Positions 8,760 to 24,339 of a stretch of 64,000 bases of DNA are shown here, one piece after another. The position numbers and the translations under genes are program-made. This stretch comes from Candidatus Eisenbergiella merdavium (lineage in GTDB: Bacteria; Bacillota; Clostridia; Lachnospirales; Lachnospiraceae). The notes under the pieces are model-generated. The model saw only the letters and a list, made by a program, of their open reading frames with translations, made no database searches and was not told the origin of the DNA. The number at the start of each line of letters is the position of its first letter. Positions within the stretch are counted from its first letter, which is position 1. Location of the stretch: contig DWWS01000074.1 of the NCBI GenBank assembly GCA_019119595.1, positions 1 to 64,000 of the forward strand, given 5' to 3'.

Positions 8760-8864
8760 GAAAACTGAACGTTAAAATACATTTAAAAGCTAATAATACA
8801 AAAATTCGTTTTCTGCATTCTTTTGGGATGCAAGGAAGGAGAAAACAAAGGAGGGGCATACAGG

Positions 8865-9818
8865 ATGAGCGATTTTTCAGAAAAGCTCGCGCAGGAGATC
8901 AAAAACACAAATAAACCGTTACGCTATCTGGCGGAGGCGAGCGGACTGCAGCTGGACTATATTTCCAAAATGAGCAGAGGAAAACGGATTCCCCAGGATG
9001 AAGAAAAGCTGAAAAGACTTCTGGATGCAATGGAGTGTGTGACACAGGCAAGAGAGACTCTTCTCCAGCTCTACAGGCAGGAAAAGATGGGAAAAACACA
9101 ATGGAGCTGTATGAAGGAACTGATACAAATCATTGAGCAGGATGTTTCGGAAAATGTTATGGACCGGCAGAGCTTTCCCAAAAAGGAAGGGACGGAGGAA
9201 GCGGTTCTGAGTCGGGAGAAGGTTTTCTGTTTCCTTCAGAGCATGCTGGCAGACAATGAGAAAAAACGGCTTTGTATCTGGACGGCGGCAGTGAAGCAGG
9301 AATCCATGGAGCGTCTGATGCAGATGATCAGCGGGATGGCCTGCGGAAGCATTGATCATCTGTTTCCGATGTGGCAGAACAGGGACGATGAAAATACACT
9401 GGTAAATCTTAAAAGGCTCAGGGTCATTAAACCGGCAGTCCTGTACGATAATTATCACCCTTCCTTCTATTATCTGAAAAATGAGGAAGAAAATTCCTGC
9501 GGGCTTTTTCCGAACTGGTTTTTATCAGAGGATGCGGCTTTGGGCGTGAATGATGCCATGGACTGCGGAATTGTTCTCAGAAGGAAGGGGCAGATCGAAG
9601 CGCTGAAGGCAGAATTTTTGGAAAAATTCCGTATGGCAAAGCCCCTTGTGAACCGTTCTGATATTTCGGAATATATGGATAAGGTAAACCTGATGATGGA
9701 CACAGGCTATGTGACCCGGAACTATTATCTGGAACAGTCCCCCTGTCTTTTGCATTTGATTCCTGTCAGCCTGCTGAAAGAGCATATCCTGATTGGCGGA
9801 GAGGACGGGGGGGGGTAA
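8865..9818 (+). CDS. HTH transcriptional regulator, N-terminal part of a G9-interrupted gene
   Basis: N-terminal XRE-like HTH (LRYLAEASGLQLDYISKMSRGKR); stops directly after a G9 run (GEDGGG*). Confidence 0.7.
   Translation: MSDFSEKLAQEIKNTNKPLRYLAEASGLQLDYISKMSRGKRIPQDEEKLKRLLDAMECVTQARETLLQLYRQEKMGKTQWSCMKELIQIIEQDVSENVMDRQSFPKKEGTEEAVLSREKVFCFLQSMLADNEKKRLCIWTAAVKQESMERLMQMISGMACGSIDHLFPMWQNRDDENTLVNLKRLRVIKPAVLYDNYHPSFYYLKNEEENSCGLFPNWFLSEDAALGVNDAMDCGIVLRRKGQIEALKAEFLEKFRMAKPLVNRSDISEYMDKVNLMMDTGYVTRNYYLEQSPCLLHLIPVSLLKEHILIGGEDGGG
9807..9815 (+). repeat. Homopolymeric G9 tract at the junction of two frames
   Basis: gac GGGGGGGGG taa; removal of one G continues into the 9823-10281 frame. 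Confidence 0.9.
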
Positions 9819-9822
9819 ACTG

Positions 9823-10281
9823 ATGCGGTCGATACAAATGCGGATCCTGCATATGAAGCAGGAAGACATGGTTCATATTTTTTCTATTGAAGGGCTGCGC
9901 TATTTGATGGAAGAAGGAAGAATATCAGGCTATCCGGATGCGCTCTACCGGCCGTTGGATGTGCCTACGCGAAGCTGGCTTCTCAAAAGATATTATCAGT
10001 ATATTCAGAGTACCCCGCATTCCTGTATCTGTGTCCGGGAGGATTGTATCAGGCTGCCCAGGCATATATCCGTTGTTTCAAGCTCAAATGTGGATAATGG
10101 CATTGCCTTTTGGAACAGCTCTCAGAGCGGTCTCCGGTATTTTCAGATCACGGAATCCGGCATCTCCCAGAAGTTTTACGATTTCTGCCGTTTCCTGGAG
10201 GCGGGAAATATGGCCCGTTCCTGTGAAGAAACCTTGGAGCTGATCAGAAATATGATCATGGAATATGGCGGAATACTGTGA
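9823..10281 (+). CDS. C-terminal segment of the same regulator in another frame, or a separate small protein
   Basis: Frame opens upstream of the G tract (TTG 9793); folded-protein-like composition (FSIEGLRYLMEEGRISGYPDALYRPLD...). Confidence 0.6.
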   Translation: MRSIQMRILHMKQEDMVHIFSIEGLRYLMEEGRISGYPDALYRPLDVPTRSWLLKRYYQYIQSTPHSCICVREDCIRLPRHISVVSSSNVDNGIAFWNSSQSGLRYFQITESGISQKFYDFCRFLEAGNMARSCEETLELIRNMIMEYGGIL

Positions 10282-10384
10282 GGCATTTTTTTTGTCTAAT
10301 TTTTGTGCCTGTCTGGAAATAGAAGGAGCCTTATGTTAGCCTGAGTAGGTCAGTTATATTTTACATATGACAGGAGGAAACGGA

Positions 10385-10828
10385 ATGTATTGTAGAAATT
10401 GTGGTAAGGAGCTGGCAAACGAAAATGCGGAAGTATGCCTGCAATGCGGAGCGGCGAGAGGAAAAGGCGATAAGTATTGCCCTAATTGCGGGACTGCCGT
10501 AAATCCTGGACAGGATATATGTCTGAACTGCGGTATCAGATTAGCGGCGGGAAAGAATTCATCTAAAGGAAACAGCAAAAGCAAGATGACCGCAGGGCTG
10601 CTGGGAATTTTGCTGGGAGAGTTCGGGGTGCACAATTTTTATCTGGGATATACAAAAAAGGCAGTAATACAGGTTTGTGTTTCGGGAGCCTGTATTCTTT
10701 TGTCATGCTGCAGCGCAGGTTTGACTCTCCTCGGCGTTCTGGGAATGTGGATATGGGGACTGGTTGAAGGGATTATGATTTTAAACGGACGTATCGATAA
10801 AGATGCACAGGGCAATCGTTTAGAGTAA
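10385..10828 (+). CDS. Zinc-ribbon TM2 domain membrane protein
   Basis: Three CxxC zinc-ribbon segments, then TM2 signature GEFGVHNFYLGYTKKA. Confidence 0.85.
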   Translation: MYCRNCGKELANENAEVCLQCGAARGKGDKYCPNCGTAVNPGQDICLNCGIRLAAGKNSSKGNSKSKMTAGLLGILLGEFGVHNFYLGYTKKAVIQVCVSGACILLSCCSAGLTLLGVLGMWIWGLVEGIMILNGRIDKDAQGNRLE

Positions 10829-10833
10829 GTATC

Positions 10834-11250
10834 ATGGAGCCTTTTGATGAAAAAACGCAGACATGGCTGTTTGCTGTCAGCAGTCTTGCCGTGGCGGCTG
10901 CGGTTATTCTGATTACATTTATATATACAGCAGGCGGCAACAGCATAGCGGATATTTTACCCGACTGCGTTTTTTATGAAAAATTTCATTTATATTGCCC
11001 GGGATGCGGAGGGACTCACGCGGTGCTCTGTCTGCTGCATGGAGATATTGTCGGAAGCTTTTTTTATCATCCGTTTGTCTTATATGCGGCTGCTGTATAT
11101 AGTATATTCTTTTTCTCCAATATTCTTTTCGGCCTGTCTGTTGTCCGCCGGAGATATGCATTAAGGCCAGCTCATTTTATTGCGGCGATCGTAATAATCC
11201 TGCTGCAGTGTCTGGTAAAAAATGTATGGCTTCTATTGACTTGCCGGTAA
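10834..11250 (+). CDS. DUF2752 family membrane protein
   Basis: Motif CPGCGGTHAVLCLLHGD typical of DUF2752. Confidence 0.8.
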   Translation: MEPFDEKTQTWLFAVSSLAVAAAVILITFIYTAGGNSIADILPDCVFYEKFHLYCPGCGGTHAVLCLLHGDIVGSFFYHPFVLYAAAVYSIFFFSNILFGLSVVRRRYALRPAHFIAAIVIILLQCLVKNVWLLLTCR

Positions 11251-11278
11251 AGAAAAATATGAGATTGGGGAGTGTTCT

Positions 11279-11605
11279 GTGGAAATAACTTTACGAACGG
11301 AAATACTGGAAAGACTTGAGCAGCTTATGGCAGAAAGAGGCTGGTCCGTCTACCGGCTGGCAAGAGAATGCGGTCTGTCTGAATCGACGGTCGCAAACAT
11401 TTTTCGGAGAAACGGGTCTCCGTCCCTGGAAACCCTGCAGACAATGTGCAGAGGCTTAGGAATCCCTATGTCCCGGTTTTTCGCAGAAAATGAAATGGTG
11501 GAACTGACACCGGAACTCAGGGAGCTGTTTGAACAATGGGCTTTGCTCACTAAGGAGCAGAAGAATAGTATTCTGGAAGTCATCCGACTTTTGGGGCAGA
11601 AATAA
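11279..11605 (+). CDS. XRE-family transcriptional regulator
   Basis: HTH_3 domain MAERGWSVYRLARECGLSESTVANIFRRNGSPSLETL. Confidence 0.85.
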   Translation: MEITLRTEILERLEQLMAERGWSVYRLARECGLSESTVANIFRRNGSPSLETLQTMCRGLGIPMSRFFAENEMVELTPELRELFEQWALLTKEQKNSILEVIRLLGQK

Positions 11606-23274: not shown

Positions 23275-24339
23275 TCAGCTCGACTTTACTTCCTTCCAGA
23301 GCTCATTGTACAGCTCGTCGGCTTCCTCGCCCAGGTAGCTGAAGGTCTCCAGATCGTCATACTGGCCCAGATCGGGGAAGGCGATCTCGGAGTTGCGGAT
23401 ATCCTCGTCCTCGATCAGCTCCCTCGCCGCATCATTGGGCGTGGAGTAGGTGATGTATTCAAAATTCATCAGCGCGATGTCAGGACGGCACATGAAATCG
23501 ATGAATTTCATGGCGTTTTCCGGATTGGGTGCGTTTTTGGGAACCACCCAGGAATCGATCCAGACGTTGGTTCCCTCCTTGGGGATCACGTATTCCAGAT
23601 CCGGATTTTCCCGCTGGGTATAGATCGCTTCGCCGGAATAGATGACGCCGAGAGCGGCTTCGCCGCCGATCATCTTGTCACGCACCTGGTCGATCACGTA
23701 AGCCTGTACCAGAGGCTTCTGCTCGATGAGAAGATCCCTTGCGGCGGCAAGCTCGGCTTCATCGGTGGAGTTCATGGAATTGCCGTTTAACTTCAGAGCC
23801 ACCATGAAGGCGTCGCGCACGGAATCCTGCATCAGGATGCTGTCCTCATACTTTTCATCCCAGAGGATGGACCAGCTTTCCACGGGCTCGTCCACCATGG
23901 AGGTGTTATAGAGGATACCCACGGTTCCCCAGCAGTAGGGGACGGAATAGCTGTTCTCCGGGTCAAAGCCCCTGGACTGCTCCCAGTACTGATCGCCGAT
24001 GTTGGCCGTGTTTGGCATGCTGTCAAAATCCAGCTCCATCAGCAGGTCATTGTCGATCATTTTCCGGATCATGTAGTCGGAGGGGCAGACCACATCGTAT
24101 TCGGAGGCTCCGGCCTCCACCTTGGGATACATGATCTCATTGGTCTCAAATTCATCGTAAACCACCCGGATGCCCGTTTCCTCCTCGAACATCTCAAGCA
24201 CCTCGGGATCCACATATTCTCCCCAGTTGTAGACCACCACCTCTCCGGCAGAGCCGGCGGAGGAGGAAGAGCCGCAGCCGCACAGGGAAAATGCGCCGAC
24301 AGCGGCGAGCAGGGTAAGGAAAAGCTTTTTTTTCATCAT
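23275..24339 (-). CDS. potD: Spermidine/putrescine ABC transporter substrate-binding lipoprotein
   Basis: Lipobox LCGCG; VVYNWGEYVDPEVLEMFEEETGIRVVYDEFETNE; IDFMCRPDIALMNFEYITYSTPN. Confidence 0.93.
   Translation of the reverse strand: MMKKKLFLTLLAAVGAFSLCGCGSSSSAGSAGEVVVYNWGEYVDPEVLEMFEEETGIRVVYDEFETNEIMYPKVEAGASEYDVVCPSDYMIRKMIDNDLLMELDFDSMPNTANIGDQYWEQSRGFDPENSYSVPYCWGTVGILYNTSMVDEPVESWSILWDEKYEDSILMQDSVRDAFMVALKLNGNSMNSTDEAELAAARDLLIEQKPLVQAYVIDQVRDKMIGGEAALGVIYSGEAIYTQRENPDLEYVIPKEGTNVWIDSWVVPKNAPNPENAMKFIDFMCRPDIALMNFEYITYSTPNDAARELIEDEDIRNSEIAFPDLGQYDDLETFSYLGEEADELYNELWKEVKSS

Follow-up and report, generated by a model that had tools for sequence, protein, structure and literature searches.

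The regulator gene and its frame break

The window, i.e., the whole 64,000-nucleotide stretch analysed here, is part of contig C26 of a genome of 4.54 Mb in 75 contigs, and holds at 8865-10281 a gene for a helix-turn-helix (HTH) regulator whose reading frame is interrupted at a homopolymeric G tract (Table 1). The open reading frame starting from ATG 8865 ends with the residues GGEDGGG followed by TAA, and this stop directly follows nine consecutive G, as described in the earlier note; no other run of eight or more G is found in the window. The +1 frame is free of stops from 9793 until 10279-10281 (162 codons, 152 when counted from ATG 9823), hence the earlier description of a next frame that is open across the tract and continues for about 150 aa was accurate, and the positions stated there hold throughout. 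Across the tract, an open frame results only when the tract length leaves a remainder of two upon division by three; consequently, and again in agreement with what had been claimed, eight G yield one protein of about 470 aa while nine or ten G truncate it. A coding tract capable of slippage whose length decides the frame, as is expected of a contingency locus, is thus present. The presence of nine G as such does not exceed the composition expectation for the window (6.5 G8 matches predicted by dinucleotide shuffles, 2 observed); what is non-random here is how the frame relates to that of the orthologues, and that the downstream frame is under constraint.

Table 1. Features of the regulator gene and its frame break (positions within the window)
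Feature	Position	Strand	Remarks
Shine-Dalgarno region of the regulator, core AGGAGGGG	8849..8858	+	duplex -12.1 kcal/mol
HTH regulator, 5' part as assembled	8865..9818	+	Cro/C1-type HTH and first sensor lobe; 317 aa
Possible reinitiation signal, Shine-Dalgarno-like G run	9799..9825	+	putative; -11.8 kcal/mol; 7 nt before ATG 9823
G9 homopolymer tract where the frame breaks	9807..9815	+	without counterpart in orthologues; this genome +4 nt compared with each
TAA stop used in the G9 state	9816..9818	+	
Regulator, 3' part, +1 frame	9823..10281	+	152 aa and stop; C-terminal third of five orthologues, 73-82% identity

Orthologues and the origin of the tract

Relatives were retrieved with the regulator protein and are Candidatus Eisenbergiella metagenome-assembled genomes, one genome per species. 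Each of the five congeneric orthologues (L002-L006; 67-77% identical) consists of one uninterrupted 470-aa frame, a second copy in one of those five species (L014) comprises 468 aa, and distant Lachnospiraceae homologues (18-21% identity) are long single frames too. The alignment of homologues therefore identified the unbroken protein as the family norm, and the idea of two separate genes as the norm was rejected; at the site in question the orthologues have no G tract, but each is a single unbroken gene. Gene order was compared for two of the orthologues (L045, L047) and is the same in both, with gltX, a helicase gene, a gene that appears to be DUF1292-like from its sequence type, and the regulator. 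Downstream of the regulator the window encodes Zn-ribbon/TM2, DUF2752 and small XRE genes (10367-11605), where L045 and L047 have two other genes.

None of the five congeneric orthologues possesses a G tract at the site of 9807-9815; these read, e.g., EGEEREELMRS. The stretch from the shared GGE to MRS comprises 19 nt in the window as compared to 15 nt in every orthologue, and on the basis of this difference the tract is a real expansion particular to this species and recently grown, with any miscount limited to the last base. It follows from the same comparison that a one-base miscount cannot explain the tract, which would comprise either eight or nine G. As every orthologue is without the tract, it is not a conserved switch. 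Retention of the tract among relatives is common for contingency loci, but is not strictly required; the target tract is not retained, whereas that of a separate AraC gene (L062, see below) is. Other strains of the species were sought through viral contigs, which gave no match.

The assembled state would also be compatible with a stable split into two genes, in which coupled reinitiation at ATG 9823 yields the C-terminal lobe of 152 aa as a chain of its own that reassembles with the first. This ATG begins 4 nt past the TAA of the HTH frame, its Shine-Dalgarno duplex is similar in strength to that of the gene's own start (equalled or exceeded by 3.2% of all window ATGs), and the break lies between predicted lobes. 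However, no relative has a split gene, the Shine-Dalgarno sequence results incidentally from the G run, and ATG 9823 corresponds to an ordinary Met or Leu codon in the orthologues, so that a stable split is considered very unlikely.

Constraint on the downstream half

For the 152 codons after ATG 9823, dN/dS between the window and the orthologues amounts to 0.07-0.13, whereas the 313 codons preceding the tract gave 0.12-0.26, i.e., values above those found downstream. Compared with ortholog-ortholog controls, which gave similar values, no acceleration of the window's downstream half was found, and no in-frame stop occurs within the 152 downstream codons. An old pseudogene was rejected, as the downstream half is constrained as much as the upstream half. 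Since the downstream half is without decay, the frame break would have to be very recent, or reversible and frequently reverted, or else a miscount of the last G. An intact product as family norm, together with an off-state frame that is still constrained, is what a contingency locus would be expected to show.

The last of these options means that the true tract is G8 and that a full-length protein is made which carries one glycine more than the other family members, without any switching. Homopolymer counts are error-prone and an undecayed downstream half is what such an error would leave behind, but a G8 tract would still require a 3-nt expansion over every orthologue and the tract would thus be real even then. 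The homopolymer error, which had been named as the main alternative, accordingly loses its hold on the tract itself (+4 nt relative to the orthologues) and keeps it on the count of the last base.

Protein architecture

The family profile matches the C.BclI and C.AhdI chains over residues 3-62 (E 1.4-1.6e-4), and four of the 12 family members gave an HTH_3 match (best E 5.7e-6), the search with the window protein alone staying below threshold; the N-terminal HTH_3-like domain of a Cro/C1-type HTH regulator was thus found by means of the family profile. The position of the HTH is shared with Cro/C1 (XRE)-type one-component regulators that carry large C-terminal sensors, but in the present protein the C-terminal 400 residues gave no match to a Pfam or NCBIfam family. 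An AF2 model of an orthologue, built from a three-row alignment (mean pLDDT 54; C-terminal half below 50, residues 271-470 not confident), shows the HTH with confidence, and likewise an alpha/beta domain spanning roughly residues 117-260. In Foldseek searches with this mean-pLDDT-54 model, the alpha/beta middle lobe weakly resembled phospholipase D-like folds (best E 0.007). A phospholipase D-like sensor of the TrmB type would have two PLD-like lobes; the PLD-like matches obtained here have E values of 0.007 or worse, and the model of the C-terminal lobe is not confident. Residues 314-318, where the break falls, lie ahead of a final block of predicted helices and strands, which, judged from the order of secondary-structure elements, we infer to be a second lobe; the sensor of the regulator is therefore probably two-lobed. 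As the break precedes this block, the G9 form would lack the last third of the protein but would still bind DNA and possess the first lobe.

G and C tracts elsewhere in the genome

The genome contains 23 interior G/C tracts of at least eight bases, 8 of which reside in AraC/HTH_18 genes where 0.5 were expected (binomial about 3e-8), this class of 87 genes (2.4% of the genome) having been picked after seeing the data. Automatic sorting of the tract contexts by codon usage lacked the resolution for genes that are short or atypical and missed the downstream half of the target, for which reason the named cases of frame breaks rely on reading the sequence directly and on matches to Pfam. A response regulator-AraC gene (L064, C39:186900-186908) is frameshifted at C9, with the receiver before and HTH_18 after the tract, and a tyrosine phosphatase gene (L067, C52:97015-97022) is frameshifted at G8, its halves matching Pfam Y_phosphatase3 (PF13350) end to end (1-172 and 173-240). 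The orthologues of L064 and L067 are intact and without the tract. In a probable lipoprotein gene (L055, C6:35586-35594) the signal peptide (...PLMACGGG*) stops at G9, and 320 codons are open past the tract in another frame, for which no Pfam match was obtained. Several other G9 genes of the genus are in frame. A mutator strain was considered and found to be without support, MutS being intact.

Among the twelve A9/T9 tracts of the genome, a clear interior frame break was found in none, a result that argues against homopolymers being miscounted in general and hence against a miscount at the target. G12 runs at two contig ends are what poly-G read artefacts would give and point towards a miscount, but frame breaks at G/C tracts recur at a conserved site in independent assemblies (L062, see below). 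Taken together, a tract of true length G8 without any switching is judged to be rather unlikely.

The broken G-tract genes share no single common frame shift. This bears on the possibility that the full-length protein is made from G9 by a programmed event, in which either the RNA polymerase slips or the ribosome shifts to the +1 frame at GGG-TAA. The downstream frame is conserved and the stop codon follows the G run immediately in the required +1 arrangement, both of which speak for such a mechanism; the differing frame shifts and the lack of the G run in all orthologues run counter to it. To our knowledge, recoding at G9-TAA is without precedent, and programmed expression of this kind is regarded as extremely improbable.

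Further observations concern the sequence context of the tracts. Across 13 genomes of the genus, G8TAA occurs 40 times as compared to 2 occurrences of the reversed control, and T follows most G9 tracts. G8TAA is found at possible promoter and RBS sites, in linkers of lipoproteins and as part of in-frame GGGK codons; because of these mixed contexts, G8TAA was not adopted as a programmed recoding signal. At two loci of the window's genome (L051 and L069) G9 is found between TTGACA-like and TATAAT/TATACT-like hexamers, where its length would alter promoter spacing. In four species an intergenic G tract of length 8 or 9 has near-identical flanks (L065, L113, L123, L154), and in the window's genome it sits between alpha-amylase-like and ftsH-like genes, both on the minus strand.

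A conserved poly-C tract in an AraC gene

The AraC gene L062 (contig C38, tract at 23618-23625 as read on the G strand) adjoins rplQ, is divergent from an ABC permease gene and carries a C8 run between its sensor and HTH parts. This run is kept in six Eisenbergiella species, i.e., in this genome and five others: the orthologues in G006, G009 and G004 are at C8 and in frame, which together with the genome's own copy gives four species, whereas the orthologue is frameshifted at C7 in G008 and at C9 in G007. Paralogues in G001 and G012 are both frameshifted at C9 (all copies: loci L062 and L188-L201). An invariant third base was found at 3 of the 48 fourfold codons whose residue is conserved in all six species, and synonymous sites of the gene are near saturation among them. 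With so few fourfold codons invariant, chance survival of the run, which in the in-frame copies spans three adjacent proline codons, was estimated to be unlikely (about 2e-4). The pattern, which comes from several independent assemblies, is what a contingency tract under selection would be expected to leave. L062 is a different gene from the target, but the best supporting case for tract switching; it raises the prior for switching G/C tracts in regulators of the genus without proving that the target switches.

These findings also bear on the idea of a recent one-off frameshift, i.e., a loss-of-function allele or strain polymorphism that arose at an accidental G run without any selected switching. 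The target tract is species-specific and missing from the five orthologues, and the tracts of the phosphatase and the lipoprotein look equally accidental, all of which would fit such an event. Opposed to this, the slippage that made G9 can also reverse it, G/C tracts are over-represented in regulators and one of them is conserved across six species, and a one-off event without selection is likewise deemed unlikely.

A putative contingency locus

Based on these data, it is suggested, with about even chances of being right, that 8865-10281 holds a homopolymeric contingency locus like bvgS, which toggles between a truncated and a full-length regulator. The gene encodes one HTH regulator of some 470 aa, comprising a Cro/C1-type HTH and a probably two-lobed sensor, and in this species a poly-G tract has expanded within it, just ahead of the part for the last 150 residues. 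In the G9 state the frame is off and the protein ends after the HTH and the first lobe. As the G run is long enough to slip in replication, the gene probably toggles, with slippage moving it reversibly between its truncated and full-length forms. Given the proximity of ATG 9823 to the TAA and the good Shine-Dalgarno match of the G run, the 152-aa fragment could still arise by reinitiation in the off state. Reversible switching of 9807-9815 in living populations, together with a regulatory effect, is what we infer from this model. The proposal of a phase-variable regulator thus draws on the family norm, the lineage-specific expansion, the downstream constraint and the length-dependent frames of other regulators of the genus, and is weakened by the fact that no orthologue carries the tract, by the in-frame G9 genes elsewhere in the genus, by a number of G8+ tracts in the window that stays within the composition expectation, and by the choice of the AraC class after the data had been seen.

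In Bordetella pertussis bvgS, C6 gives a full-length sensor kinase and C7 a truncated one (PMC1891110; PMC7241687). Both genes are regulators with a homopolymeric C/G tract within the coding sequence, where one extra base truncates the product and would change a whole regulon; they differ in that bvgS encodes a sensor kinase for which C6/C7 mixtures were shown, whereas the present case concerns a one-component HTH regulator of a gut Firmicute with a longer tract (G9), where switching is deduced. L062 resembles the target in that it too encodes a regulator whose sensor and effector parts are separated by a G/C tract, and it has off states (C7/C9) in other species, but six species have kept its tract at varying length, whereas that of the target is confined to one. 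A literature search on homopolymer switching in Lachnospiraceae returned nothing relevant, and a homopolymeric contingency locus of this kind is, as far as found within the literature searched, new for this lineage.

Implications for Eisenbergiella

Phase variation through homopolymeric tracts is known above all from mucosal pathogens that are Gram-negative. It is possible, if somewhat doubtful, that Eisenbergiella maintains genome-wide G/C contingency tracts concentrated in regulators, AraC regulators above all, whereby slippage would rewire subpopulations and the G9 regulator would have been recruited recently. If this holds true, genomes represented by a single consensus would misreport such regulators as truncated. 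It would then also follow, for tracts in regulators of the sugar type, that commensals from a common genus of gut Lachnospiraceae have regulatory subpopulations ready by means of slippage.
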